This document shows, piece by piece, positions 7,716 to 26,230 of a stretch of DNA of 35,007 bases. Origin of the DNA: an uncultured Rhodospirillales bacterium (GTDB lineage: Bacteria > Pseudomonadota > Alphaproteobacteria > Acetobacterales > Acetobacteraceae); contig CAIYSR010000159.1 in assembly GCA_903928895.1 (NCBI GenBank), forward strand, positions 1 to 35,007. The letters are read 5' to 3'. A model generated the notes under the pieces. It worked only from the letters and a program-made list of their open reading frames with translations. It was not told the origin of the DNA and did not search any database. Each line of letters starts with the position of its first letter. Position 1 is the first letter of the stretch. The position numbers and the translations under genes were made by a program.

Positions 7716-8567
7716 ATGTTCGACCGGATCTTGCTGCTCGTCCTGCTGCTCGCCGCGGCGCCGGCGCTCGCCGAGCCGGACCAGGCGCTGCGCGCCCGGC
7801 TGCCCAGCGATATCGCAGCGGCCGGCAAGATGGTCTCGGTCAACAGCGGGTCGTTCCCGCCCTATGAGATCGTGGGTGATGGCAACACGCTTTCCGGCGC
7901 CAGCGCGGAGATCGACCATGCGATTGGTGCCCTGCTCGGCGTCAAGGTCGAGAACGTCACCGTCGGCAGCTTCGCCGCCCTGCTCACCGGCATCAAAGCC
8001 GGTCGCTACCAGTATGCCATGGGTCCGATCGGCGACTTCAAGTCGCGCCAGGACAGCGCCGATTTCGTCGACTATGTGCAGGAATATGTCATTTTTGCCG
8101 TCCAGAAAGGCAACCCCAAGCATATCGACAACCTCGCCTCCGCCTGCGGCAGCAAGGTCGCAGTCATGGCCGCGGGCTCGGCCGAGAAGGTGATCCTCGC
8201 CCAGGCCGAAGCCTGCAAGACCGCCGGCAAGCCTGCGCTCGAAGTGCAATCCTATACCGACCAGCCGACCTCGCTGCTGGCGGTGCGCTCGAAGCGCGCC
8301 GACGCCTTCTTCTCCTCCCAGGCACCGCTCACCTATTTTGTCGAACAGGCCAAGGGTGACCTTGAACTCGCCGCGGTCGGCCAGGCCAACGGCTTCGATG
8401 CCCTGGTCCAGGGTGCGGTGGTTCCGAAGGGCTCGCCCCTCGGCCCGCTGCTGCTCGACTGCATCCGCAAGCTCCAGGCCGACGGCACCTACGCCGCGAT
8501 CATGAAGAAATGGGGCCTGGAGAAGAACATGCTCGCCACCCCGGGGTTGAACCTGGCGAAGAACTAA
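7716..8567 (+). CDS. Family-3 (polar amino acid) ABC substrate-binding protein
   Basis: A 283-residue periplasmic binding protein of the bacterial family-3 (amino acid) type. The signal peptide covers about residues 1-19 (ends PALAEP). The mature part shows the typical pattern: an N-terminal SGSFPPYEIVGDG ligand-pocket segment, GASAEIDHAIGALLGVKVE, then FAALLTGIKAGRYQ and MGPIGDFKSRQDSADFVDY. It ends LQADGTYAAIMKKWGLE, a hallmark of the family C-terminus. It is followed at once by a permease and an ATPase of the same transporter class. The ligand cannot be read from the sequence. Confidence 0.92.
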   Translation: MFDRILLLVLLLAAAPALAEPDQALRARLPSDIAAAGKMVSVNSGSFPPYEIVGDGNTLSGASAEIDHAIGALLGVKVENVTVGSFAALLTGIKAGRYQYAMGPIGDFKSRQDSADFVDYVQEYVIFAVQKGNPKHIDNLASACGSKVAVMAAGSAEKVILAQAEACKTAGKPALEVQSYTDQPTSLLAVRSKRADAFFSSQAPLTYFVEQAKGDLELAAVGQANGFDALVQGAVVPKGSPLGPLLLDCIRKLQADGTYAAIMKKWGLEKNMLATPGLNLAKN

Positions 8568-8572
8568 CCGTT

Positions 8573-9427
8573 TTGGACGACTCCGCGCGCGACGTCGCCC
8601 GGGCGCACCGGCCAGTTTTGGCCGGGCGCTGGCTGCTCTGGGGCGCGGTCCTGCTGCTCGTCGCTGATTTTGCATGGATCTTTGCGAACAACCGCAATTT
8701 CGGCTGGCCGATCGTCGCCCAGTATTTCACCGCCGCCGCCATCCTCCAGGGCCTGTCGGTCACACTCGGGCTGACCCTGGTGGCGATGACGCTCGGCACC
8801 GCGCTCGGCCTGCTGCTCGCCATCGCCCGCCTCTCGCGCGACCGCCTGCTCAACGGGCTGGCCGGTCTCTACATCTGGTTCTTCCGTGGCACGCCGCTGC
8901 TGGTGCAACTGATCATCTGGTACAATCTTTCAACGCTGTTTCCCGAACTCTCGATCGCCATCCCGTTCGGCCCCACGCTGGCGAGTTGGAACACCAACGA
9001 TGTCATCACGCCAATGACCGCCGCCGTCGCCGGCCTCTCGCTCAACGAAGCGGCCTACATGGCGGAGGTCATCCGGGGGGGCCTACTCTCGGTCGACCGC
9101 GGCCAGTACGAGGCGACCGACGCGTTCGGCATGACCCGGGCCTATGCGCTGCGCCGGATTATCATTCCGCAGGCGATGCGCGCTATCGTGCCGCCCACCG
9201 GCAACCAGCTGATCAGCATGATCAAGGCGACCTCGCTGGTCAGCGTCATCGCCATGTCCGACCTGCTGTATTCCGTGCAGGCAGTCTACAACCGCACATT
9301 CGAGGTAATTCCGATGCTGCTGGTGGCCGTTCTCTGGTACCTGGTGATCACGACAGTGCTCAACCTCGGCCAGGGCGTCATCGAGCGCCGCTATGCGCGC
9401 GGCAGCGAGCGCGGGCAGACGTCGTGA
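8573..9427 (+). CDS. Polar amino acid ABC transporter permease
   Basis: A HisM/GlnP-type membrane subunit with several hydrophobic helices. The conserved loop reads GLSLNEAAYMAEVIRGGL, followed by GQYEATDAFGM, the EAA coupling segment. I use TTG 8573, 5 nt after the binding-protein stop, giving 284 residues and allowing translational coupling. An ATG at 8510 would overlap the upstream gene by 58 nt with a non-family extension, and later ATGs would remove the first helix. No good Shine-Dalgarno is visible, so the start is uncertain. Only one permease gene is present, so the pore is probably a homodimer. Confidence 0.9.
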   Translation: MDDSARDVARAHRPVLAGRWLLWGAVLLLVADFAWIFANNRNFGWPIVAQYFTAAAILQGLSVTLGLTLVAMTLGTALGLLLAIARLSRDRLLNGLAGLYIWFFRGTPLLVQLIIWYNLSTLFPELSIAIPFGPTLASWNTNDVITPMTAAVAGLSLNEAAYMAEVIRGGLLSVDRGQYEATDAFGMTRAYALRRIIIPQAMRAIVPPTGNQLISMIKATSLVSVIAMSDLLYSVQAVYNRTFEVIPMLLVAVLWYLVITTVLNLGQGVIERRYARGSERGQTS

Positions 9428-10188
9428 GTCTCGTACGTATCCGCAACGTGCACAAGGCCTTCGGGAAAATCGAAGTGCTGAAGGGCATCGATCTCGACGT
9501 CGCGGCCGGCGAGGTCGTGGTCATTCTCGGCCCTTCCGGCTCCGGCAAGTCCACGTTGTTGCGTTGCATCAACCACATCGAGGCGATCGACCGCGGCTCG
9601 ATCGAGGTCGACGGCGACCAGATCGGCTACGCGTTGCGCAACGGGCGGCTGCACCGTCTGTCCACCGCCGCGATCGTGCGCCAGCGCCGGCGAATTGGCA
9701 TGGTGTTCCAGGCCTTCAACCTTTACCCGCACATGACCGTGCTGCAGAACATCACCGAAGCCCCGATCGGCGTGCACGGCGAAAGCCGGGCGGCAGCGCG
9801 GGACCACGCGCTGGCGTTGCTCGGCCGCATCGGGCTGGCCGACAAGGCGGATGCCTACCCGCGCCAGCTCTCCGGTGGCCAGCAGCAGCGCGTCGCCATC
9901 GCCCGCGCACTGGCGATCCGGCCGAAACTGCTGCTGTTCGACGAGCCGACCTCGGCGCTTGACCCCGAATTGGTCGGCGAGGTGCTGGCAACCATGCGCG
10001 ATCTCGCCGGCCAGGGCCTGACCATGATCGTGGTCACCCACGAGATTGCCTTCGCGCGCGATGCCGCCGACCGGGTGGTGTTCATGGACGACGGACGCGT
10101 TCTCGAACAAGGCGCGCCGGCGGCCGTGCTCGAGGCGCCGGAGCATCCGCGCACCCGGCTATTCCTCAGCCGCTTCATGCAGCGATAG
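9424..10188 (+). CDS. Polar amino acid ABC transporter ATP-binding protein
   Basis: A 254-residue GlnQ/HisP-type ATPase that energises the importer. Walker A is GPSGSGKST (36-44), the Q-loop lies in MVFQAFNLYPHMTV, the signature is LSGGQ (149-153), Walker B is LLFDEPTSALDPE and the switch histidine is His206 (VVTHE). It starts at GTG 9424, which overlaps the permease stop in a GTGA, a classic coupled junction. An insertion (about residues 66-88) precedes the usual RRR-IGMVFQ region. The gene closes the 6747-10188 operon. Confidence 0.95.
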   Translation: MSLVRIRNVHKAFGKIEVLKGIDLDVAAGEVVVILGPSGSGKSTLLRCINHIEAIDRGSIEVDGDQIGYALRNGRLHRLSTAAIVRQRRRIGMVFQAFNLYPHMTVLQNITEAPIGVHGESRAAARDHALALLGRIGLADKADAYPRQLSGGQQQRVAIARALAIRPKLLLFDEPTSALDPELVGEVLATMRDLAGQGLTMIVVTHEIAFARDAADRVVFMDDGRVLEQGAPAAVLEAPEHPRTRLFLSRFMQR

Positions 10189-10308: not shown

Positions 10309-11883
10309 TCATCCGCGACGGACATTCCAGAAGGCAACCTGGTTGTCGACCATGCCCACGAGGTCGGAGCGGTGCGCCGTGGCAGAAATCATCTGGCCCA
10401 GCGGGATATAGGGGACCTCCTGAAAGGCCAGCGCCTGCATCTCGCGGGCAATGCGCAGTTGTGTGGCCTGGTCAGGCGCAACGAGCCAGGCATCGCGCAG
10501 GTCCTCCATTCGCGCAATCGCGGGCCAACCGGGAGCGGCCGCCTTGCCGTTGCCGCGGAGGAAGACGTGGGTCGCGGGCGTGCCCTGATCGGCGCCCGTC
10601 CAGTTCGTCTGGAAGATCGACCAGCCGCCCTTGTCCAACGGGTCCTGCTTGGCGCGGCGCTGGACCAGGGTGCCCCAGTCCATCGACTGGTAGTCAACGT
10701 TGAAGCCGACGCGCTTGAGCACGTCGGCGGTGACATCGGCAAGGATCTTGGCGTAGGGGACATCGCCCGGGGCAAGCAGCACGACCGGCTCGCCCTTGTA
10801 GCCGGCGGCGTCCAGGTTGCGACGGGCGGCTTCGACGGAGCGCGGGCCGGTCAGGGCCTCCATCCCGGCATCGTTCGCCATCGGCATGCCGGGACAGAAA
10901 TAGCCGACATTGTCGCGCCAGCGCGTGCGGTCCTCGCCGTTCATCGCGGTCATGTAGTCGGCCTGGACGATCGCAGGGAAGACGGCGCGGCGGATCGCAG
11001 CGCGATCGAACGGTGGTTGTAGCCAGTTGAACCGCATGCAGGAGATCGAGCCAAGCGGGAATGCAACGCGCACGGTGACGCCTTGGGCCTTGCGCAGCGT
11101 ATCGATGAGGTCGGCATTGGGGGTGAGGAGCCAGTCGATCTCGCCCCGCTGGAGCGCCCCCGCCGCGGTGGTCGGGTCGGGCAGGATGGCCCATTCGACA
11201 CGCTCGAAATGCGCCACCTTGGGCCCCGCCGTGCCACCGATCGGGCCGTCCTTGCGGGGGATGTATTTCGGGTTCCGCGCGTAAACCACGCGCGCTCCAG
11301 CGATGCGTTCGTCGGCCTTATAGATGAAGGGTCCGGAGCCCGTGGTGTCGGTCACCTGCGTAAAGGGATCGGTCCTGGCGAGGCGCTCGGGCATGATGAC
11401 GCAGGGCACCCCGGAGTTGCGGGCAAGCGCATCGAGCACCGGAAAGCGGGACTTCAGACGCAGCACGAGGGTCTTGTCGTCAAGCACCGCAATCTCGTCG
11501 GTGGCCGCGGCCAGGGCCTGCCCGAATGGATCGCGCGCCGCCCAACGCTTGACCGAAGCGGCACAATCACGCGCCAGAACCTTCTCGCCGTCGTGGAAGG
11601 CGAGGCCGTCGCGCAGGCGCATGGTCCAGTGCTTGCCGTCGTCATCGACGGTATAGGCCTCAAGCATCTGGAGCTGGGGCTGGTACTGCGCGTCCTGCCC
11701 GAACAAGGTGTCATAGACGAGCGCCGCATGCTGGCCGGACTGCGAGGCCGTGGTCCACACCGGATCGAGCACGGCCAGATCGGCCTCCGGGGTAAAGCGG
11801 ATGGTGGTGGCGCTGGCGGCTCGTGCGAGGCCAGGAGCGGCAAGGGTCGCGCCGGCGGAGGCGAGGAAGGTGCGGCGGTACAT
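10309..11883 (-). CDS. Family-5 (peptide/nickel-type) ABC substrate-binding protein, Tat-type signal
   Basis: A 524-residue periplasmic binding protein of the DppA/OppA family. The N-terminus MYRRTFLASAG carries a twin-arginine pattern and a probable cleavage site near LARAAS, so it may be exported folded. Family features include PEADLAVLDPVWTTAS, WTMRLRDGLAFHDGE, TDTTGSGPFIY, FDRAAIRRAVFPAIVQADYM and a C-terminal PYIPLGQM segment. AGGAGA lies 8 nt before the ATG, and an ATG 53 codons upstream has no support. No permease or ATPase accompanies it on its strand. It diverges from the operon at 12255 and may supply that transporter with another ligand. Confidence 0.93.
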   Translation of the reverse strand: MYRRTFLASAGATLAAPGLARAASATTIRFTPEADLAVLDPVWTTASQSGQHAALVYDTLFGQDAQYQPQLQMLEAYTVDDDGKHWTMRLRDGLAFHDGEKVLARDCAASVKRWAARDPFGQALAAATDEIAVLDDKTLVLRLKSRFPVLDALARNSGVPCVIMPERLARTDPFTQVTDTTGSGPFIYKADERIAGARVVYARNPKYIPRKDGPIGGTAGPKVAHFERVEWAILPDPTTAAGALQRGEIDWLLTPNADLIDTLRKAQGVTVRVAFPLGSISCMRFNWLQPPFDRAAIRRAVFPAIVQADYMTAMNGEDRTRWRDNVGYFCPGMPMANDAGMEALTGPRSVEAARRNLDAAGYKGEPVVLLAPGDVPYAKILADVTADVLKRVGFNVDYQSMDWGTLVQRRAKQDPLDKGGWSIFQTNWTGADQGTPATHVFLRGNGKAAAPGWPAIARMEDLRDAWLVAPDQATQLRIAREMQALAFQEVPYIPLGQMISATAHRSDLVGMVDNQVAFWNVRRG

Positions 11884-12254
11884 GGTGTCTTTCTCCTCGT
11901 TCGACTTCGCGCCAAGTGTGCTGGGCTTCCCAGCGAAAAGAAAGTGCGGCCCCTGGGACGATCTCGGCAAATGATCGGACGTCCAGCCCTGCCAGCACCC
12001 GCGGAGTTCATCCAACGCGCCCCGGCGCCCGCGTGACCGCAAAGCGTGGGGTATGCCCGGTTCCGCAAGCGACCGATCGCCGGTCTTGCGGCGGGATGCC
12101 GAACCTCCAGCGGCCCAACTCCTATGACAAGCGAAAACGCGAGACCGGGACGGTTGTTTCCAACGATCGCGGTCCTGCTCTAGGATATCTCCGACGCGAG
12201 ACGCGGCGCTCGATCAACGGGCCCCGCAGTATTCCCCGGGAAGGGAGCCGCCCG
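11884..12254. other. Divergent intergenic region, 371 bp
   Basis: This gap separates two divergent family-5 binding-protein genes and must hold promoters for both. An imperfect hairpin (12063-12075 against 12081-12091, two-base bulge) sits in the middle. TTCCAA-17-TAGGAT near 12158-12186 is a weak sigma-70-like candidate for the plus gene. AAGGGAG at 12241 is the ribosome-binding site for 12255. I see no convincing small gene and no recognisable operator. Confidence 0.5.
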
Positions 12255-13784
12255 ATGCGACTGAAACCACTGCTGATCCTTGCCGCCGCGGCTGCCGGCC
12301 TGTATTTCGCGCCGGTGTCCGCTGCCGAACTGCGCATCGGCTTCACCCTCGACCCCCTGACGCTAGACCCGGCCAATCACCGCTCGCGCGAGACCGAAAG
12401 CGTGCTGCGCACCATGTATAATGGCCTCGTCGCCCATGACCCATCGATGAAGCTGGTTCCCGAACTCATCGAATCCTGGACGTGGATCGACCCCCAGACC
12501 ATGGAAGCCAAGATCCGCCCTGGGGTAAGGTTCCACTCCGGCGAAACCATGACCGCCGATGACATCGTCTTCACCTTCACCCGCCTTCTCGCGGACGGCG
12601 CCATCGCCGGCCAAACCAGCCCGCGCAAGGGCCTGCTCGGCCCGACACGGGAGGTTGTGAAGCTCAACGACAGCACCGTCCGCTTCCTGCTCACGGAGCC
12701 CTGGCCCGTGCTGCCCGCCATGCTCACCTTCCAGGAGGTGGTCAGCAAAAGCTTCACCGAGAAAGCGGGGGCCGGCGGCATCGCCACCACGGAGGACGGA
12801 ACGGGACCGTTCAAGCTGGTGCAATGGCGCCGTGGCGACAGCCTGGTGCTCGAACGCGCCGCCAGCTACTTCGGTGGCGGGCCTGGCATTCCCAAGGCTG
12901 GCAATGCTTGCATCGAGCGCACCATCATCAAGATCATCCCCGAGAATGCCTCCCGCGTGGCGGCCTTGCTTGCCGGCGACGTCCACATCATCAACGAACT
13001 GCCGGCTCACGACATCCGCACCGTCGAGGCCAACCCCAACACGGCGGTGATGGCCGTCAACGGCACCCGCAGCTTCTTCGTCGCCCTCAACACCACGAAG
13101 AAACCCTTCGATGACGTCCGCGTCCGACAGGCCGCCAATCACGCCCTCAACCGCAAGCTGATGATCGACAAACTGCTCGCCGGGCGCGCCACCAAACTCG
13201 ACGGCGTCATGAGCCCCGCCGCTTTCGGCCATAACCCCAACCTTCCCGAATACGCCTTCGACCCCAAACGGGCCAAAGACCTCCTGACCGCCGCCGGCTA
13301 CCCCAACGGCATCGACGTCACCCTCGATGCCGACGGCCCGCAGAAGGAAACCGCCGAAGCCATCGCTGCCCTCCTCACCCAGGCCGGTATCCGCACCAAG
13401 GTCGCCATCGGCGAGGGTTCGCAAGTCCGCACCCGCTGGGCCATCAACGGCAAGAAAGAGGGCGACATGTGGATCACGTCCTGGGGCAACGGCTCGCTCG
13501 ATCCGACCGACATCTTCGAACCGACCCTGCAGACCGGCGGACGCGGCAACTCCGCCTTCTACTCCAACCCCAAAGTCGACGCCCTGCTCGCCGCCGGCGG
13601 TCGCGAAACCGATGCCACCAAACGCGCCGCCTTCTACCAGGACGCCGAAGCGCTCATCCACGCCGATGCCCCCTGGATTTTCCTGTGGCTCCCCCAAGAC
13701 CTCTACGGAGTGTCCCGACGTCTCACCGGCTGGTCCCCCGCCGCGAGCGGCTGGCTCAATCTGCGTGACGTCTGCGTCCAGTAG
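12255..13784 (+). CDS. Family-5 ABC substrate-binding protein of the peptide importer
   Basis: A 509-residue DppA/OppA-type periplasmic protein and the first gene of the transporter locus. The signal peptide ends near residue 23 (PVSAAE). Typical segments are IGFTLDPLTLDPANHRSRET, IRPGVRFHSGETMTADDIVF, TEDGTGPFKLVQW, FDDVRVRQAANHALNRKLMI and WITSWGNGSLDPTD. It ends in NLRDVCVQ. The start is supported by AAGGGAG 7 nt before the ATG. Permease and ATPase genes follow on the same strand after a 291-nt gap with hairpins, which could let the binding protein be made in excess. Dipeptide-type ligands are usual for the family, but the neighbouring C45 enzyme hints at an N-acylated compound. Confidence 0.94.
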   Translation: MRLKPLLILAAAAAGLYFAPVSAAELRIGFTLDPLTLDPANHRSRETESVLRTMYNGLVAHDPSMKLVPELIESWTWIDPQTMEAKIRPGVRFHSGETMTADDIVFTFTRLLADGAIAGQTSPRKGLLGPTREVVKLNDSTVRFLLTEPWPVLPAMLTFQEVVSKSFTEKAGAGGIATTEDGTGPFKLVQWRRGDSLVLERAASYFGGGPGIPKAGNACIERTIIKIIPENASRVAALLAGDVHIINELPAHDIRTVEANPNTAVMAVNGTRSFFVALNTTKKPFDDVRVRQAANHALNRKLMIDKLLAGRATKLDGVMSPAAFGHNPNLPEYAFDPKRAKDLLTAAGYPNGIDVTLDADGPQKETAEAIAALLTQAGIRTKVAIGEGSQVRTRWAINGKKEGDMWITSWGNGSLDPTDIFEPTLQTGGRGNSAFYSNPKVDALLAAGGRETDATKRAAFYQDAEALIHADAPWIFLWLPQDLYGVSRRLTGWSPAASGWLNLRDVCVQ

Positions 13785-14075: not shown

Positions 14076-15083
14076 ATGACGCCGGTTTTGCTGCTGCAGC
14101 GCGTGGGGCATTTGGTACCGGTGCTGTTGGGGGTCACGGTCATCGTGTTCTTGATGATGTCACTCACCCCTGGTGATCCGGCCGAGATCATGCTCGCCAA
14201 CCAGAATGCGACGCCGGCGCAGGTGGCAATGTTGCGGCACGACATGGGGCTGGATCGGCCGCTGATGGAACGGTTCGTGTCGTTTGTCGGCCACGCCCTG
14301 CAAGGAGATTTCGGGCAGTCGCTGTTTCACCGGCGGCCGGTCGCAACCGTGATCATGGAGCGCCTGCCGGCGACGATCGAACTGAGCGTGGCCGCGATGG
14401 CGTTCGCGCTGTTGGTATCGATCCCGCTTGGGGTCATGGCGGCAGTCTATCGCGGCGGCGTGCTGGACCGGCTGGCGACGGTCGGGGCGCTGCTCGGGGT
14501 CTCGTTGCCGGGCTTCTGGTTCGGGATCCTGATGCTGATCGGCTTCGCGGTGAACCTCCGCTGGCTGCCGGTTTCCGGCGCGATCGACTTCGCGGCCCAA
14601 CCGCCGGGCATCACCGGTCTGATGGTGGTGGACAGCATGCTCGCCTTGCGGGGCGATAGTCTGATGAATGCGCTGGCGCACCTCGTTTTGCCCGCAATCA
14701 CGCTGGGGCTCCCGATGGCGGCGATCCTGATGCGGGTGACGCGCGCCTCGATGCTGGAGGTGTTGCGGCAGGACTACATCACATTCGCCGAGGCCAAAGG
14801 GCTGGGGCGCGGTCGTATCATCGCGCTGCATGCCTTGAAGAACGGGCTTTTACCGACCGTGACGGTGGCAGCGATGGAGACCGGTTCCCTGCTCGGGGGC
14901 AACATGGTCGTGGAGACGGTGTTCGGCTGGCCGGGCCTGGGGCGGCTGGTGGTCGAGAGCATATTCGTCCGCAACTACCCGCTGGTGCAGGCCGCGGTGC
15001 TGCTCTACGCGGTCACCTACGTGGTGGTGAATTTCCTCGCCGACCTGCTCTACACCGTGCTCAATCCCCGGGTGCGGATGTGA
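14076..15083 (+). CDS. Dpp/Opp-type ABC permease, first subunit
   Basis: A 335-residue DppB/OppB-like inner-membrane subunit. The first helix (VGHLVPVLLGVTVIVFLMM) is followed by LTPGDPAEIML, and the cytoplasmic EAA loop reads FAEAKGLGRGRIIALHALKN. The C-terminus reads VVETVFGWPGLGRLVVESI and ends in NPRVRM, as is usual. The ATG at 14076 is preferred; a TTG at 14067 would add three residues. Neither has a strong Shine-Dalgarno. Codons end often in G here, whereas its partner genes prefer C, a visible break in composition inside one operon. Confidence 0.94.
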   Translation: MTPVLLLQRVGHLVPVLLGVTVIVFLMMSLTPGDPAEIMLANQNATPAQVAMLRHDMGLDRPLMERFVSFVGHALQGDFGQSLFHRRPVATVIMERLPATIELSVAAMAFALLVSIPLGVMAAVYRGGVLDRLATVGALLGVSLPGFWFGILMLIGFAVNLRWLPVSGAIDFAAQPPGITGLMVVDSMLALRGDSLMNALAHLVLPAITLGLPMAAILMRVTRASMLEVLRQDYITFAEAKGLGRGRIIALHALKNGLLPTVTVAAMETGSLLGGNMVVETVFGWPGLGRLVVESIFVRNYPLVQAAVLLYAVTYVVVNFLADLLYTVLNPRVRM

Positions 15084-15252: not shown

Positions 15253-16101
15253 ATGATTTCGCGCCTCGGCAAGCTGCTGCCCGACAAGCTCGCCCGCCTC
15301 GCCGGCCTCGGCGTGCTCGCATTCATCGTCATGGCCGCCTTTGCTCCCCTGATCGCGCCGCAGGACCCGGCGGCGACCGACCTGTTCCGCCGCCTGCAAC
15401 CGCCGGCCTGGCTCGATGAGGGCGACTGGGCCTTCCCGCTCGGCTGCGACGCCCTGGGTCGCGACATTCTCAGCCGCATCATCTTCGGTGCCCGCGTCTC
15501 GATTTTCATCGGCGTGGTGGTCGTGCTCCTCGCCACCGTCATCGGCGTCATGGCCGGCCTCGCGGCGGGGTATCTGCGCGGAGCGACGGATCGGCTGATT
15601 TCCGGGCTGGTCGACGTGCTGCTCGGCTTTCCCTACCTGATTTTCGCCGTCGGCCTGATGGCGATGATGGGCCCGGGCGTGCTGAACATGGTGCTGGCAC
15701 TGGCCTACAAGGAATGGGTCGTCCCCTGCCGCCTCGTGCGCGGCGAAACCCTGGCCGCGCGCGAAACCGAATACGTCGAGGCCGCCCGGGCGATGGGCGC
15801 ATCCAGCCTGTCCATCATGGTCGGCGAAATCCTTCCCAACATCCTCTCCCCCGTCATCGTGGTCGGCACGGTGCGCATCGCCCAGGTGATCATCCTGGAA
15901 GCCAGCCTTTCCTTCCTCGGCCTCGGCGTGCAGCCGCCCACCGCCTCCTGGGGCTCCATGGTGGCGGACGGCCGCGCCTTCATCCTCGACGCCTGGTGGG
16001 TCAGCACCTTCCCGGGTCTTGCCATCCTGCTCCTGGTGCTGTGCATCAACGTCGCCAGCCAGGCCGTGCGGGACGCATTGGACCCTCGTTTCCATGACTG
16101 A
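15253..16101 (+). CDS. Dpp/Opp-type ABC permease, second subunit
   Basis: A 282-residue DppC/OppC-like membrane subunit that pairs with the 14076 product. It shows the N-terminal helix, FAPLIAPQDPAATD, the family motif GCDALGRDILSRIIFGAR, the EAA loop YVEAARAMGASSLSIMVGEI and LEASLSFLGLGVQPPTASWG. The start codon sits exactly at the edge of repeat R. Only a poor GGCGG precedes it, so initiation may depend on the repeat or on read-through from upstream. It overlaps the next ATPase gene by 8 nt. Confidence 0.95.
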   Translation: MISRLGKLLPDKLARLAGLGVLAFIVMAAFAPLIAPQDPAATDLFRRLQPPAWLDEGDWAFPLGCDALGRDILSRIIFGARVSIFIGVVVVLLATVIGVMAGLAAGYLRGATDRLISGLVDVLLGFPYLIFAVGLMAMMGPGVLNMVLALAYKEWVVPCRLVRGETLAARETEYVEAARAMGASSLSIMVGEILPNILSPVIVVGTVRIAQVIILEASLSFLGLGVQPPTASWGSMVADGRAFILDAWWVSTFPGLAILLLVLCINVASQAVRDALDPRFHD

Positions 16102-17071
16102 ACCGCTGCTCGCCATCAACGACCTCCGGGTCGCCTTCGCCACCCCGCACGGATTGGTACGGGCGGTGGACGGCGTGAGTCTCGACGTCCGCCCCGGCGA
16201 ATGCCTCGGCGTGGTCGGCGAATCCGGCTCCGGCAAAAGCGTCACCTTCGCCGCGGTGATGGGCCTGATCCGCCCGCCCGGCCGCATCGAAAGCGGCTCC
16301 ATCCGCTTCGATGGGCGCGAACTCGTTGGCCTCGACCGGGTCGACTACCGGAGCCTGCGCGGCCGCGACATCGCGATGACGTTGCAGGATGCCCTGACCT
16401 CGCTAAACCCGGCGCTCACCGTCGGCACCCAGATCACCGAAGTCCTGCTCGCCCACGCGGAGGACCTGCCATCCGGTCGGCACGCCCGTCATCGCGAGGC
16501 GCGCGCGCGCGCCATCGAGATGATGCATCTCGTCGGCATCCCGGCGGCGGAGCACCGTCTCGGGGACTACCCGCACCAGTTCAGCGGCGGCATGCGCCAG
16601 CGCATGATGATCGCCATCGCCCTGTCCTGCCGTCCCCGTCTCCTGATCGCCGATGAACCCACGACCGCGCTCGACGTCACCATCCAGGCGCAGGTGCTGG
16701 AACTCATCGCCGGCATCCGCGCCACCCTGGGCATGAGCGTGGCCCTGATCACCCACGACCTCGGCGTGGTCGCCGAATATTGCGACCGTGTCGCCGTCCT
16801 CTACGCCGGCCAGATCGTCGAGAGTGGACCGACCGCCTCCGTGATCGGCGCGCCCCGCCACCCCTACACCGCCGGCCTGCTTGCCTCGGTTCCGATGCTG
16901 TCGAACCTCGATCGCCGCATCCGCCCGATCGATGGCCAGGTTCCGGGGCTTGTCGATCTCCCCCCCGGCTGCCGCTTCCTGCCGCGCTGCCCCCATGCCG
17001 CTCCCGTCTGCGTCAGCACGATTGCCATGCGCGCCCTGGAACACGACCGCGCCGTGCGGTGCGTCCGATGA
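16094..17071 (+). CDS. Dpp/Opp-type ABC ATPase, first subunit
   Basis: A 325-residue DppD/OppD-like ATPase. Walker A is GESGSGKS (42-49), the Q-loop region is [17 protein letters not shown], the signature is FSGGMRQRM (163-171), Walker B is [12 protein letters not shown] (183-194) and the switch histidine is His221. The oligopeptide-type C-terminal extension carries HPYTAGLL and the [14 protein letters not shown] segment, which in relatives can bind an Fe-S cluster. The ATG at 16094 lies inside the end of the permease gene. Coupled translation with both neighbours is likely. Confidence 0.95.
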
Positions 17072-18060
17072 CCGCACTCCTCGAGGTCGAGAACCTGGTC
17101 AAGCACTACGAGGTCGGCGGAGGCCTCCTGCCCCGCCTGCTCGGCCACAAACAGCCCCGCGTCCAGGCCGTCAACGGCGTCAGCCTCGCCATCCGTGCCG
17201 GCGAGACCCTTGGCCTGATCGGTGAAAGCGGTTGCGGCAAATCCACGCTCGGCCGCGCCATCCTGCGCCTGCACGAACCCGACAGCGGCACGATCCGCTT
17301 CGCCGGCACCGATGTCGTGGGGCTCGACGCTGCCGCGATGAAAGCCATGCGGCGGCGCATGCAGATCATCTTCCAGAACCCCTACGCCTCGCTCAACCCG
17401 CGCAAAACCGTGGCCGACATCCTTGCCGCCCCCCTGCGCCTGCACGGGGTCGCCGCGGGCCCCGCCCTGCGCGAGCGCGTGATGGCCATGCTCGCGGCCG
17501 TCGGTCTCAGTGCCGAGCACGCCAGCCGCTACCCGCACCAGTTTTCCGGCGGCCAGCGCCAGCGCATCGGCATCGCCCGCGCCCTCATCCTCAACCCCGA
17601 ATTCGTCGTCTGCGACGAACCTGTCTCCGCGCTCGACGTGTCGATCCAGGCGCAAATCATCGACCTCCTCGCCCGCCTGAAGCGCGATTTCGGCCTGACC
17701 TACTTGTTCATCAGCCACGACATCGCGGTGATCGGTTATGTCAGCGACCACGTCGCGGTGATGTATCTCGGCCAGATCGTCGAAAGCGGCCCCGCCCGCG
17801 CCGTGCTGCGCGCGCCGCAACACCCCTACACCCGCGCTCTGATGTCCGCGGTGCCGCGCATCGACCGCGCGCGCCAAGGCGAACCCCAAATCCGCCTGCA
17901 CGGGGATCTCCCCTCGCCGATGAACCCGCCAGCCGGCTGCCGCTTCCATCCGCGCTGCGCCTTCGCCACCGGCATCTGTCGCGCCACGCCGCCCCCGCTG
18001 CGCCAGCTCGACGCCATGCACAGCGTCGTCTGCCACCATTTTCCGGAGGTCATGCCGTGA
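17068..18060 (+). CDS. Dpp/Opp-type ABC ATPase, second subunit
   Basis: A 330-residue DppF/OppF-like ATPase. Walker A is GESGCGKST (52-60), followed by IIFQNPYASLNPRKTV, the signature FSGGQRQRIGIARAL (159-173), Walker B VVCDEPVSALD (180-190) and FISHD with the switch histidine. The C-terminal oligopeptide domain reads HPYTRALMSAVP and CRFHPRCAFATGIC. It starts in an ATGA overlap with the upstream ATPase and ends in a GTGA overlap with the C45 hydrolase. That last junction ties the hydrolase to the transporter. Confidence 0.95.
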   Translation: MTALLEVENLVKHYEVGGGLLPRLLGHKQPRVQAVNGVSLAIRAGETLGLIGESGCGKSTLGRAILRLHEPDSGTIRFAGTDVVGLDAAAMKAMRRRMQIIFQNPYASLNPRKTVADILAAPLRLHGVAAGPALRERVMAMLAAVGLSAEHASRYPHQFSGGQRQRIGIARALILNPEFVVCDEPVSALDVSIQAQIIDLLARLKRDFGLTYLFISHDIAVIGYVSDHVAVMYLGQIVESGPARAVLRAPQHPYTRALMSAVPRIDRARQGEPQIRLHGDLPSPMNPPAGCRFHPRCAFATGICRATPPPLRQLDAMHSVVCHHFPEVMP

Positions 18061-19103
18061 TCCACCTCGCCGGGGACCCTCACACCCGCGGCCGCGCCCA
18101 GGCCGCGCGCGAACCCGAAACTATCCCCGGGGTCCGCGCCATGGTCGCCGCGCGCCTGGAAGCCGCCGCCGCCCTCCTCACGCAACCCCGCATCCAGCGC
18201 TACCTGGCGCGCCAGCGCGTTTTTGCGGAACGCCACGATCCCGAGGGCATCGCCGAGATGGACGGCATCGCCGAGGGCTACGGGCTCAAGCCGGCCGACC
18301 TGCTGGCCTTCCTCCACGCCGGCCAGCTCGCCGGCCTTTCTCCTGAAGGCTGCACGTCCTGGGCCTATACAAACCCCGCCCACGGCGCCCTCCTCGTCAA
18401 GAACCGCGACCTGCGCGGCACGGCCCTTCCCCTGCAGCGCGTCTTCCTCCATCACGACCCGGCCTGGGCGACCCGCCGCGTCATGTGCGTCGGCAGCCTC
18501 GGCGCCCCCGGCGCCTATTCCAGCGGCATCAATTCCGACGGCTTTGCCCTCGTCGACACCCAAGTCGTCACCACCGACCAGGGTGTGGGCCTGCTGCGCT
18601 ATTTCCTGATGACCCGCCTGCTCGCCCGCTGTGCCAGCGTCGCCGAAGCCATCGACGAACTCCACACCACCACCCATGCCGGTGGCGGCACGCTCGTCCT
18701 AGCCGATGCCACCGGCGCCATCGCCTCCGTCGAAATCGGCCATTCCGGCGTCGCCATCGAGCGCCCCACCGGCCCCTGGACGGCGCGGACCAACCACTTC
18801 CTCTCCCCTGCCCTCCACAACCGCCTGCTCGCCGCCCCGAGCGACCCGGGGATCGACGTCTCCCACGCCCGCCTCGCTCACCTCACCGCCTGGCTCGCCA
18901 GCCGCGACGCCTGCCCCACCGACAAGGAAGCCCGCGCCGTCATGTCGCGCCACGACGAACCCGGATCGACCGGCCTCTGCCGTCACGGCGGCGCTCTTGC
19001 CTCCACCACCGTATCCTGCGCCATCTTTGCCTGTGGCCAGGGATCGCTTTATTTCGCCCACGGAAATCCCTGCGACGGGGCCTGGTCCCGCCATTCCCTG
19101 TGA
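18057..19103 (+). CDS. C45 family autoproteolytic acyltransferase/amidohydrolase
   Basis: A 348-residue Ntn hydrolase of the acyl-CoA:6-aminopenicillanate acyltransferase (peptidase C45) family. The conserved GCTSWAY places the likely nucleophile at Cys99; in relatives the chain cleaves itself just before this Cys to free its N-terminus. Other family segments are ALLVKNRDL after the Cys, SSGINSDGFALVDTQV, THAGGGTLVLADATGAIASVE and ARTNHFLSP. GTG 18057 overlaps the ATPase stop (GTGA). No signal peptide is seen, so it should act on imported substrate in the cytoplasm. Bacterial members cleave or form amides of diverse acyl groups; the substrate here is unknown. There is no NRPS or isopenicillin N synthase nearby, so a role in antibiotic synthesis is unlikely. 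Confidence 0.87.
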   Translation: MIHLAGDPHTRGRAQAAREPETIPGVRAMVAARLEAAAALLTQPRIQRYLARQRVFAERHDPEGIAEMDGIAEGYGLKPADLLAFLHAGQLAGLSPEGCTSWAYTNPAHGALLVKNRDLRGTALPLQRVFLHHDPAWATRRVMCVGSLGAPGAYSSGINSDGFALVDTQVVTTDQGVGLLRYFLMTRLLARCASVAEAIDELHTTTHAGGGTLVLADATGAIASVEIGHSGVAIERPTGPWTARTNHFLSPALHNRLLAAPSDPGIDVSHARLAHLTAWLASRDACPTDKEARAVMSRHDEPGSTGLCRHGGALASTTVSCAIFACGQGSLYFAHGNPCDGAWSRHSL

Positions 19104-19135
19104 CGCAGCAGCGTCCGCAACAACACGAGGTTCCG

Positions 19136-20494
19136 ATGCAGACCGCGCGCATCATCTGCCCCAATGGCCATCTGGGGTTCGCTCCCCTCAAGCCCGCAAG
19201 CTTCGCCCTCGGCGTGGCCGCCGGCCCCGACTTCATCGCCGCCGACAGCGGCAGCGACGACATCGGCCCCGGCCCGCTCGGCTCCGACACCTGCACCTCC
19301 CCGCTCGCCTGGCAGACGCATGACCTCGAGGCCATGCTCCTCGCCGCCCACGCCCGCGGCGTGCCGATGATCATCGGCTCGGCCGGCGACACCGGCACCA
19401 ACAGCCGCGTCGACCTCTACGTCGGCATCATCAAGGAGCTCGCCAAAAAGCACGGCCTCGCGAAGTTCAAGCTCGGCTATTACTACTCCGAAGTCAGCCA
19501 CGCCTATCTGCGCGGAAAAATCCGCAGCGGCGACATCATCGAGGGCCTCGAGGGACGCGACCCGCTCACCGAAACCGAGCTCGACGCCTCGGCCCGCGTC
19601 GTCGCCATGGCAGGCGTGCATCCCTTCATGAAGCTGCTCGACCAGGGCGCCGACGTCATCATCGGCGGCCGCAGCAGCGATTCCGCCATCTTCGCCGCCG
19701 CCGCGCTGCATCGTGGCTATGAGGAGGGGCTCTCCTATTATCTCGGCAAGGTTCTGGAATGCGCCTCCTTCTGCGCCGAGCCCTATGGCGGCAAGGAGAC
19801 GGTGCTCGGCGAAATCGTCGACGGCGGCGTCCACGTCACCGCGATGCACCCGGCCCAACGCTGCACCGTCGCCTCCGTCGCCGGCCACGCCATGTACGAG
19901 CGCTCCAACCCCAATCATGAATTCGTCGCCGGCGGCATGCTCGACATGAGCCAGTGCCACTACGAGCAGATCTCGGAGAAAACCACCCGCGTCACCGGCC
20001 CCCGCTTCGTCCCGATCGATCGCATCCGCGTCAAGCTCGAAGGCTCCGCCAAGGTCGGCGAGCGCTTCGTCGGCATGGCCGCCGTCCGCGATCCCTACAC
20101 CATCAAGCACATCGATACCGTCATCGCCTGGGCGCGCCAGCAAGTGCATGACCGCTTCGGCGCAACCGGCTACGAGCTCCACTATACCGTCTACGGCCGC
20201 GACGGCGTGATGGGCCCGCTCGAACCCGTCAAAACCCCCGCCCATGAACTGTGCATCGTCGTCCAGGGCGTGGCGCCGACCAGGGAAATGGCCGAGGAAG
20301 TCTGCATCACCGGCACGCGCCAGATGTTCTATGCCCGCCTCCCCGAGGTGAAGGGCACCGCCGGCTCGGTCGCCTTCCTGTTCGACGAAGTGCTGCCCGC
20401 CAGCCCCGCCTATCGCTGGAGCGTCAACCACACCGTCGCCGTCGACGACCCGCTTGAGCTCTTCCCCACCCACATGACCGAAGCCGGACTCTGA
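19136..20494 (+). CDS. AtuA-like (DUF1446) family protein
   Basis: A 452-residue member of the AtuA/DUF1446 family, named after an acyclic terpene utilisation gene whose exact reaction is not settled. It shows GPDFIAADSGSDDIGPGPLG near the N-terminus, then MIIGSAGDTGTNSRVDLY and VIIGGRSSDSAIFAAAALH, the glycine-rich core of the family. No signal peptide is apparent. The ATG follows CGAGG, 32 nt after the C45 stop. DUF4387 follows 11 nt downstream, a pairing I know from other proteobacteria, which suggests a two-subunit enzyme acting on an acid or CoA ester. Confidence 0.82.
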   Translation: MQTARIICPNGHLGFAPLKPASFALGVAAGPDFIAADSGSDDIGPGPLGSDTCTSPLAWQTHDLEAMLLAAHARGVPMIIGSAGDTGTNSRVDLYVGIIKELAKKHGLAKFKLGYYYSEVSHAYLRGKIRSGDIIEGLEGRDPLTETELDASARVVAMAGVHPFMKLLDQGADVIIGGRSSDSAIFAAAALHRGYEEGLSYYLGKVLECASFCAEPYGGKETVLGEIVDGGVHVTAMHPAQRCTVASVAGHAMYERSNPNHEFVAGGMLDMSQCHYEQISEKTTRVTGPRFVPIDRIRVKLEGSAKVGERFVGMAAVRDPYTIKHIDTVIAWARQQVHDRFGATGYELHYTVYGRDGVMGPLEPVKTPAHELCIVVQGVAPTREMAEEVCITGTRQMFYARLPEVKGTAGSVAFLFDEVLPASPAYRWSVNHTVAVDDPLELFPTHMTEAGL

Positions 20495-20505
20495 GGAGCC
20501 AAGCC

Positions 20506-20856
20506 ATGCAGACCCGGAAACTCCACGAACTCGCCAAGACCATCCGCAGCAAGAACGCGGGCGTCGACCGCATCACCTTCGACATCATCTTTCGTGATCG
20601 TCGCACCTACGACGCCGTCCGCCGCAGCGGCGCGATCACCCGGGACAGCGTGCTCGCGCTCTACGGCCTGCCGGAATCGCGCCTGACCGACTTCGTGGAG
20701 TTCGACCCCGCCTTCGCCATCAAGTTCACCATCGCCCGCCTCCGCCCCAGCGGCAGCGCCGGCGACCCGGATATTTTCGGCGCCCAGCAGTACGCGCCCT
20801 TGCTCGATGTCGAGGTCCACCTGCCGGACAACGAGGTCTTCGAACCGACGCTCTAG
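20506..20856 (+). CDS. DUF4387 family protein
   Basis: A 116-residue protein of the DUF4387 family, function unknown. It opens with LHELAKTIRSKNAGVDRITFD, followed by IIFRDRRTYDAVRRSG, and ends with the DIFGAQQYAPLLDVEVHLP segment. The start is behind GAGGAG, 11 nt after the AtuA-like gene, so the two are co-translated. Family members almost always accompany a DUF1446 protein, either fused or adjacent. It is probably the small subunit of that complex (inference). Confidence 0.85.
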   Translation: MQTRKLHELAKTIRSKNAGVDRITFDIIFRDRRTYDAVRRSGAITRDSVLALYGLPESRLTDFVEFDPAFAIKFTIARLRPSGSAGDPDIFGAQQYAPLLDVEVHLPDNEVFEPTL

Positions 20857-24178: not shown

Positions 24179-25660
24179 CTACGGCCGCCACGTCATATCG
24201 GCGAGAAAGAACGCCTCGTTCGGCGTCGGCGTCCACTGCAACTCCTTGCGCGCGGCGTAGATCGAGACGTCCTGGAACAACGGGATCGCGGGGATCTCCT
24301 CGCGCATGATCTCGAAGGCCCGGCGGTAGTATTTCAGCCGCTCCTTCTCATCCAGCACCACCCGCGCGGCGTCCACCGCGGCGTCGAACTCGGGATTGCT
24401 GAACTTCGACCAGATGCTGCCGCTGCGGAACAGCGGGAAGATGACGCCGTCGGCATCCTGGCAGCCGCAGGACCAGCGGCCCTGGGCGAGATGGCCGCTT
24501 TCCTCGGGCTGGCCCTGGCGACGGCGCAGATAGGTCGGGAAATCGACCGAGACGATGTCCACCTTCAGCCCGACCTCGGCCAGCATCTGCTGCACCGCCT
24601 CGTTGAGCCGCCGATCGTACGAGGGCGCGGTGAGGAAAACCACCGTGGTGCCCTCGGCGCCGATGTCCTTGATCAGCGCGCGGGCACGGGCGGGATCGTG
24701 CGGCCAGAAGGTGATGTCCTCGATATAGCCGAAATTCGACGACGGCAGCACGATATCGACTTTCTTGCCGTAGCCCTGCTGCAGCGCCGAGATGATGAGG
24801 TCGCGGTCCACCGCCATGGAGATCGCCTGGCGCAGCCGCTTGTCCTTGGTCGGTCCGAACTGGGCGTTCATGAACAGGTAGGCGACGCGTTCGGAGGGCA
24901 CGGTCAGCAGCTTGATGCCGGGCTCGGCCTTCATCGTCACCGCGTCATCCGGGCTGATCCCGCGGATGATGTCGGCGCGGCTGGTGCGCAGATCGGCCAT
25001 CCGGGTGGTGGCATCAGGCACGGCGCGGAAGATGGCAGTCTTGAACGTGGGCTTGGGACCCCAGTAGGTGTCGACCGCGTCGATCACGCTTTGCTGGCCG
25101 CGCTGCCAGCTGCGCAGGCGGTAAGGGCCACTGCCCATGACCTGCTGGTTGAAGGCGACGTCGCCGAGCTTTTCGACATAGGCCTTCGGCACGATCGACA
25201 GTTTGGTCAACTGCGCCAGCAGCACCGGATACGGCGTTTTGGTGTGCAGCGTGACCTGCGCCGGGCCGGTGACATCGGCGGCGACGATCTGGTCGAACTG
25301 GGAAAGCTGCGGGCTCTTGAACGCGGGATTGATCATGCGGCGCACGCTGAAGGCGACATCTTCCGGCGTCAGCTTGCTGCCATCCTGGAAGACGATGTCG
25401 CTGCGCAGGTCGAACACGAGCGTGAGCGGGTCACTGTAGCGCCAGGCGGTCGCGACCTGCGGGACGATCTTGCCGGGAATGTCGCGGGTGACGAGGTTGT
25501 CGAAGATGTTGCGGTAGACCGAGGAGCTCTCCGGGTCCCACTGCACATGCGGGTCCATGGTGGCGACGTCCGAGGCGAGGTCCACCGTGAGGGTGTCCTT
25601 CTGCGCCCAGGCCGGGGAAGCCAGGGCCAGACCGAGGATAGCCAAAGCAAGCTTGCGCAT
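24179..25660 (-). CDS. Orphan family-5 ABC substrate-binding protein A
   Basis: A 493-residue periplasmic binding protein with a signal peptide ending near residue 19 (PAWAQK). It shows MDPHVQWDPESSSVYRNIFD, LRSDIVFQDGSKLTPEDVAF, MGSGPYRLRSW, RLRQAISMAVDRDLI and an unusual WSCGCQDADG. It ends PTPNEAFFLADMTWRP. The start at 25660 is behind GGAGGG; upstream ATGs add non-family sequence. It is clearly a paralogue of the 32972-34456 product and shares its 3' hairpin. No permease or ATPase adjoins it on its strand, so it must use a transporter encoded elsewhere or the Dpp-like set at 14076-18060. Confidence 0.93.
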   Translation of the reverse strand: MRKLALAILGLALASPAWAQKDTLTVDLASDVATMDPHVQWDPESSSVYRNIFDNLVTRDIPGKIVPQVATAWRYSDPLTLVFDLRSDIVFQDGSKLTPEDVAFSVRRMINPAFKSPQLSQFDQIVAADVTGPAQVTLHTKTPYPVLLAQLTKLSIVPKAYVEKLGDVAFNQQVMGSGPYRLRSWQRGQQSVIDAVDTYWGPKPTFKTAIFRAVPDATTRMADLRTSRADIIRGISPDDAVTMKAEPGIKLLTVPSERVAYLFMNAQFGPTKDKRLRQAISMAVDRDLIISALQQGYGKKVDIVLPSSNFGYIEDITFWPHDPARARALIKDIGAEGTTVVFLTAPSYDRRLNEAVQQMLAEVGLKVDIVSVDFPTYLRRRQGQPEESGHLAQGRWSCGCQDADGVIFPLFRSGSIWSKFSNPEFDAAVDAARVVLDEKERLKYYRRAFEIMREEIPAIPLFQDVSIYAARKELQWTPTPNEAFFLADMTWRP

Positions 25661-26230
25661 CGTTTTCCCTCCTGCGTCGTTCGGCGCAATGGTGACCGGA
25701 CAAGCGCTTCGATGCAATCCATCGCCCGAGCCGACATGGCAATCGGGTGAAGGCAGGCAAGGCAATCAAGGCTCCGCCGGCAAAGGGCCGCAGGCCCTTT
25801 GAACCCGCTCCATTCAGCGGCTGGATCAGCGACCTTCAGTTGAAAACACCGATCTTGCTTGCGCCGCAGGCCATCGATCCTGCGATATCGGCACGATCTT
25901 GCCCGTGAGGAAAGAATTGATGGGCTTCGCCCGCCTCCGCACGCGAGATCGCGGGCTTCCAACTGAAGGTCAGTGATCCGGCCGCTTAAATGAATGGGGT
26001 CCAGGGGCCAACGGCCCTTGGCCGGCGGAGCCTGTCTTGTTCGCTTCGCCTTCACCCGATGGCCCTGCCCGAGCCGACAATGCAGGCCCGGGCAGCGAAC
26101 CCGATGACGGCGCCTGCCCGGTCATGTTCAACCACCGCCTGCACCCGGCCCCCCACGCCCCATCCGCCGCCGGCGCCCCAGCCGTCTAGGGGATATCCGA
26201 GGGGGGTGCCCGCATGGTATCGCTGTTACC
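25661..26230. other. Divergent intergenic region, 570 bp, mostly repeat S
   Basis: Apart from repeat S (25738-26067), this gap holds about 77 bp upstream of the minus binding-protein gene and about 160 bp upstream of the plus hydrolase gene. Promoters for both must lie here, but none is obvious. Frames through it (for example 25990-26499 plus) are repeat translations that run into the next gene in another frame. Confidence 0.7.
25738..26067. repeat. Intergenic repeat S, copy 2 (both arms)
   Basis: The left arm (25738-25846) is an inverted, diverged copy of the right arm (25959-26067); about 110 bp separate them. The right part, from 25894, is nearly identical to 1-174. Each arm carries a 9-bp hairpin: 25781-25801 (perfect) and 26001-26021 (one G-T pair). 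The arms differ at a paired position in a way that keeps pairing (A-T in one, C-G in the other). I see no gene or transposase in it. Confidence 0.88.

Follow-up and report, generated by a model that had tools for sequence, protein, structure and literature searches.

The contig CAIYSR010000159.1, from the 5.57 Mb genome of an uncultured Rhodospirillales bacterium, is analysed here over its whole length of 35,007 bases (the window). Between positions 12255 and 20856 it harbors a discrete operon, with all genes in frame on the forward strand in the order SBP–DppB–DppC–DppD–DppF–C45–AtuA–DUF4387, that probably imports and breaks down a conjugated compound. The first gene (12255-13784) encodes a periplasmic substrate-binding protein (SBP) of the SBP_bac_5 family (SBP1; PF00496, 263.7 bits) and is followed by genes for a DppB-type permease (14076-15083; PF00528, 136.3 bits), a DppC-type permease (15253-16101; PF00528, 101.3 bits, with OppC_N), a DppD-type ATPase (16094-17071) and a DppF-type ATPase (17068-18060). 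Both ATPases match the Pfam families ABC_tran and oligo_HPY, and the latter also exceeds the cut-off of 408 for NF008453 (411.1 bits). On these Pfam and NCBIfam assignments the operon contains a complete Dpp/Opp-type ATP-binding cassette (ABC) importer set, with one SBP, two permeases and two ATPases, as do the Opp, Dpp and Gsi importers, from which it differs in that SBP1 falls well short of every curated NCBIfam cut-off (the top score, against GsiB, is 174.6 of 594 bits). The best PDB relatives of SBP1, 5u4o (an unnamed substrate-binding protein) and YliB (1uqw), were too remote for a ligand to be transferred.

The gene at 18057-19103 encodes a C45 family N-terminal nucleophile hydrolase, with 61.4 bits against the Pfam AAT family (PF03417; cut-off 23.2) and 149.7 bits against the NCBIfam C45_proenzyme model (NF040521; cut-off 85). 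A first-pass annotation of the window, made from the sequence alone, had placed these genes correctly, including the GTGA shared by the end of DppF (stop at 18058-18060) and the start of C45 (GTG at 18057). It had also named Cys99 as the residue before which the protein may cut itself; this candidate nucleophile is indeed a cysteine, unchanged in 13 of 13 aligned rows, the window included, and the Gly-Cys pair to which it belongs is invariant. Passing the NF040521 cut-off and holding this Gly-Cys pair likens the window protein to C45 hydrolases and acyltransferases such as penicillin acyltransferase and insect tan, from which it is set apart by its location in a bacterial operon with a lyase pair; the insect (tan) and fungal enzymes are here taken to be known members of the family. 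Searches of PDB sequences with C45 yielded no relative with an E value below 0.4, and structure models from two-row alignments were too poor for use, with a mean predicted local distance difference test (pLDDT) score of 39.7 for C45 and 32.4 for AtuA.

A short spacer (19104-19135, forward strand) separates the end of C45 at 19103 from AtuA (DUF1446; 19136-20494), and DUF4387 (20506-20856) begins 12 bases after AtuA, so that each gene follows the one before it within tens of bases, as first described. AtuA scores 88.5 bits against PF07287 (cut-off 22.8) and DUF4387 119.2 bits against PF14330 (cut-off 27). Both families had been described as poorly understood in bacteria, which is no longer quite the case now that a homologous pair has a solved structure: AtuA, over residues 2-446, matches PDB 9erq_A (E 1.4e-72) and DUF4387 matches 9erq_B (E 2.3e-20), and the chains of 9erq and 9evf are deposited as the citramalate lyase subunits cmlA and cmlB. 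The window pair, presumably a CmlA-like large and a CmlB-like small lyase subunit, shares with CmlA/CmlB the same two adjacent subunit families, nearly full-length matches and many charged residues in both subunits; it differs in that its AtuA belongs to a separate clade and is partnered by a Dpp importer and C45. In an AtuA tree (n = 49), 24 operon copies and three others form this clade with full support. The lyase homology provides a new functional anchor, and the earlier suggestion that the pair processes a released acid fits it well. As far as sequence comparison can indicate, AtuA–DUF4387 would cleave a C–C bond in a beta-hydroxy acid, and the pair would probably work like CmlAB, without a claim that it is itself a citramalate lyase.

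The two 9erq chains have close relatives in E. coli O157 Sakai, encoded by ECs_0760 and ECs_0759 (94 of 101 and 84 of 100 compared residues), which, unlike the window pair, have methylaspartate genes as neighbours. The Sakai pair (L074, 46934-48618) is annotated as 3-methylaspartate ammonia-lyase (ECs_0760) and acyl-CoA synthetase (ECs_0759). In an excerpt of PMC4682846, a DUF1446 gene downstream of mal bears the former name and the fate of (S)-citramalate is called unclear; ECs_0759/ECs_0760 are candidates for the citramalate-cleaving step that this excerpt leaves open. Excerpts of other papers describe AtuA proteins as acetate-releasing lyases (PMC4847356) and name AtuA-like lyases in a naphthalene cluster (PMC12016498).

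The window genome is taken to belong to the Alphaproteobacteria and, judging by the genera met in the order-level search, probably to the Acetobacteraceae; the distribution of its C45 was surveyed at several taxonomic levels. At the order level, 22 of 299 genomes contained a C45 match, which was strong (E below 1e-50) in 12, the window's own genome included. At the class level, a profile of 13 C45 orthologues matched 12 of 385 genomes at E values up to 1e-20, with 11 (again counting the own genome) below 1e-80; the same profile matched 7 of 398 genomes across the phylum, strongly in the own genome, G485 and G929, and a plasmid search with C45 returned two records, from Ciceribacter thiooxidans (43%) and, more distantly, Embleya. 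We examined 25 strong C45 places besides the window (L003, L029-L039, L093, L095-L105 and L107), among which L003, from an uncultured Rhodospirillales metagenome-assembled genome, is one of the window's nearest relatives. The whole order SBP–DppB–DppC–DppD–DppF–C45–(activator)–AtuA–DUF4387, on one strand and always with the SBP gene first, is present in 21 of them; three more (L039, L097 and L100) match it up to their contig ends, and one (L105) differs. The adjacency of C45 with DppBCDF and AtuA/DUF4387 seen in the first-pass annotation is hence conserved across many Alphaproteobacteria, and so is the C45–DppF junction, which extends beyond close strains and is kept down to 40-50% C45 identity. 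Among the 11 uncut relatives (L003, L029-L038), and measured from the nearest candidate start codons, DppF and C45 overlap by 4 bases in seven, while the junction measures 5-20 bases in the remaining four.

Genome-wide co-occurrence revealed the same association. At the class level DUF4387 is harbored by 35 of 385 genomes, and these include all 11 in which the C45 match is strong (Fisher P = 7e-13). The result persists when the window's genome is removed (10 of 34 vs 0 of 350; P = 8e-12), both class searches apparently covering the same genome sample; the genes are related by descent, and these P values are only a guide. Weak C45 matches showed a different context. Five of the 12 weak order-level places (L040-L044, read over 16-20 kb) contained no AtuA or DUF4387; within 1.5 kb on each side of the other seven, AtuA was absent from six and present in L021, where it adjoins a fragmentary C45 at the end of the contig. 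No AtuA or DUF4387 was found alongside the weak class and phylum matches (L106, L108-L111) or the Embleya gene (L094). In the genomes surveyed, what distinguishes the window-type C45 clade is the accompanying lyase pair. Peptide-type importer genes occur near several weak C45 genes as well (L022-L024, L042, L043, L094), so the combination of C45 with such an importer is not special; on the Embleya plasmid, the distant C45 gene (L094, 7863-8930) is flanked by two peptide-type importer gene sets without AtuA. In a literature search that had subscription papers outside its scope, we found no paper mentioning 'DUF4387' and none on this gene combination. The import-and-cleave operon of the window is real and widely conserved, and as a variant among catabolic import operons it has apparently not been described before. 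One relative (L102, 4033-7448) presents two tandem AtuA–DUF4387 pairs behind a single importer–C45 set, and the tree places its two AtuAs in different parts of one subclade. An AtuA swap inside the operon was considered and found weak, the transporter tree needing two AtuA-type changes and the AtuA tree one.

The three further members of the operon AtuA clade (L112, L113 and L114) lack C45: the pair adjoins MmgE/PrpD and hydantoinase B in L112 and an ABC importer in L113, and has no clear partner in L114. In L112 (407-6579), AtuA–DUF4387 lies between two hydantoinase B genes, next to MmgE/PrpD, an arrangement that may be a ring-opening variation on this theme. On a Terrarubrum plasmid without C45, LysR, SBP, permease and ATPase genes precede the pair, with a Dpp-type importer slightly further upstream. 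Three Cupriavidus plasmid records harbor an activator, AtuA and DUF4387 followed by a tricarboxylate-type binding protein (TctC, by Pfam on L121); two of these records (L121 and L124; Pfam run on L121 only) also have an aconitase-family gene close by. The Cupriavidus clusters resemble the operon type described here in having a related activator (about 61%), a related lyase pair (72-73% for AtuA) and a sigma-54-like site before AtuA, and differ in that no Dpp importer or C45 occurs in the 21 kb stretches and no C45 on the plasmids. These gene contexts suggest a carboxylate-cleaving core that may be fed either by other importers or by conjugate import and C45 hydrolysis.

Regulation of the operon by sigma-54 is suggested by its relatives. 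Where the window has only the short C45–AtuA spacer, 14 of them contain a gene for a sigma-54 activator as well as a -24/-12-like site; of the 11 relatives from the same family, ten (L029-L038) have the activator and L039 does not, and the other four carriers are L093, L101, L104 and L107, the activators of L033 and L037 having been identified by tblastn. By Pfam, the L029 activator has AAA and Fis-type helix-turn-helix domains and no sensor domain. The -24/-12 consensus of sigma-54 promoters is TGGCAC-N5-TTGCW, and we scored as sites matches to at least 10 of its 11 letters within 350 bp before SBP1 or 200 bp before AtuA. Such sites precede SBP1 in 12 of 14 operons with the activator vs 0 of 9 without it (background, 30 of 2534 windows) and AtuA in 12 of 14 vs 0 of 9 (background, 21 of 4428); each set of nine contains one locus that the other does not, because L097 lacks AtuA and L039 lacks SBP1, and the loci are related, so that neither these nor the motif counts below are independent events. 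In the three Cupriavidus records the site lies 72 bp before AtuA. A putative operator, the palindrome GCGTG-N5-CACGC with at least 9 of its 10 letters matched, occurs 50-180 bp upstream of the SBP1 site in 10 of 14 operons vs 0 of 9 (background, 100 of 3275), in a test that is partly circular, the motif having been spotted in the same data. Each of the three Cupriavidus records also has two or three copies of it ahead of AtuA; before alphaproteobacterial AtuA its presence was inconsistent (3 of 14 with the activator vs 1 of 9 without) and it was not retained there.

Neither the window nor L003 contains the activator gene or sigma-54-like sites in the operon, the best window matches before SBP1 and AtuA reaching 8 and 7 of 11 letters, and no close activator was found elsewhere in the window genome (the best is 41% identical). 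L029, the operon nearest in the trees to the window and L003, has both activator and sites, which suggests that the tight C45–AtuA spacing of the window is probably a derived state following activator loss. The tight coupling initially stressed is real in the window, but its C45–AtuA part looks derived.

Together, these results lead us to favor, with confidence poised about midway, a catabolic operon that would scavenge a citramalate-type beta-hydroxy carboxylic acid in conjugated form, held by an acyl or amide linkage. SBP1 and DppBCDF would bring in the intact conjugate; C45, after a predicted self-activating cut before Cys99, would hydrolyse its amide (or other acyl) bond; and the AtuA–DUF4387 complex would split the freed hydroxy acid in a retro-aldol type of reaction, yielding a 2-oxo acid (or ketone) and acetate. 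The acid so cleaved is probably the one that C45 releases. In many relatives a dedicated sigma-54 activator, presumably acting at the two sites, would turn on both halves, a control that would have been lost in the window lineage. The fixed gene order, the co-occurrence of C45 and DUF4387, the homology to CmlA/CmlB, the published descriptions of other AtuA proteins as lyases, the activator-linked sites and the carboxylate-type partners of the pair elsewhere (TctC, MmgE/PrpD) all speak for this proposal. We hold more tentatively a narrower version of it, in which the bond is an amide, the acid is citramalate- or 3-hydroxy-3-methylglutarate-like, and an activator–lyase core is common to Alpha- and Betaproteobacteria, one lineage having added the importer and C45 and so gained use of the compound in its conjugated form. 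Citrate siderophores were set aside as the conjugate, on the reasoning that free citrate would need no special lyase. The scavenging proposal unites three poorly understood families, C45, AtuA/DUF1446 and DUF4387, in one testable pathway, with the conserved binding protein as a handle on the substrate and the activator, its two sites and the putative operator as a readable regulon. If true, it would reveal the purpose of one bacterial C45 hydrolase clade and give the citramalate-lyase enzyme type a new metabolic role.

Several observations weigh against it. Identity between the AtuA of the window and its CmlA-like counterpart in E. coli is 32%, and the E. coli protein falls outside the operon AtuA clade, in an exact position that long branches make unsure; given this identity and the separate clade, the lyase substrate may differ from citramalate. 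C45 enzymes also include acyltransferases. Hydantoinase B beside AtuA–DUF4387 could mean other chemistry, and direct import of a free acid in Terrarubrum is not certain because of the Dpp-type importer nearby. In L105, C45 occurs without the importer and with an AtuA from another clade, and nine assessable operons, the window's among them, are devoid of activator and sites. The divergence from CmlA, the long stem of the clade and the MmgE/PrpD, hydantoinase B and aconitase-family neighbours seen elsewhere would suit a pair performing another reaction, for instance hydration, dehydration or the lysis of a compound that is cyclic or bound to CoA, to which the citramalate-lyase model would not transfer. 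We consider this unlikely, in view of the conservation of both subunits, charged residues included, with CmlA/CmlB, and of the flanks, where a comparison of 900 open reading frames (90 aa or longer, up to 6.5 kb away from 25 operons, E 1e-20; not all named) revealed no CoA ligase or transferase recurring beside the operon.

It is similarly improbable that the importer–C45 half and the lyase half serve unrelated compounds and have no more in common than a regulon or an operon. Peptide-type importers without AtuA do lie beside C45 genes from other clades, the lyase pair is found without C45, and each half has its own sigma-54-like site in relatives, but DUF4387 accompanies this C45 clade in every one of the 11 class genomes that have it, and this and the order fixed in 21 of 25 places argue against such a split. 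The AAT family, for its part, owes its name to acyl-CoA:6-aminopenicillanic acid (6-APA) acyltransferase, in keeping with a C45 that acts as an acyltransferase or as a detoxifying or signal-degrading deacylase (on a beta-lactam, an N-acyl-homoserine lactone or the like), with the lyase recycling a by-product. A dedicated importer and a lyase in one unit point instead to catabolism, and no resistance or quorum gene recurs among the 900 flanking reading frames, of which not all were named, leaving this explanation with a low probability.

The limits of the operon were assessed through its neighbours. Downstream in the window lie genes for a second SBP_bac_5 protein (SBP2) and an MFS_1 protein, by Pfam, which the first-pass annotation had joined to the operon as parts of a complete route ending in an Fsr-type exporter. 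The importer, C45 and AtuA/DUF4387 part of that route is a conserved unit, but its conservation does not extend to SBP2 or the MFS gene: no MFS relative was present in any stretch read around the relatives, and the sole SBP2 relative near an operon is distant (26%) and 4.5 kb away, in L033. The L003 contig stops right after DUF4387 and is uninformative on this linkage. A terminator scan, which performed no better than on shuffled sequence (5 found, 6.5 expected), detected none between 20856 and 22626, and SBP2 and the MFS gene may be co-transcribed with the operon in the window itself. Recurrent groups in the flank comparison were small, comprising ABC ATPases (7 loci), SBP_5 proteins (4), a putative membrane protein (3) and a group that includes LysR regulators, seen at four loci (L096, L097, L098 and L102) and checked by Pfam at two of them. 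In the window, two more SBP_bac_5 genes, assigned by Pfam, flank the operon on the reverse strand (10309-12042 and 24179-25765), making four within about 15.5 kb when SBP1 and SBP2 are counted. Just upstream, at 8510-10188 on the forward strand, permease-like and ABC ATPase genes have the look of a polar amino-acid importer, judging from their translations and, for the ATPase only, from Pfam.

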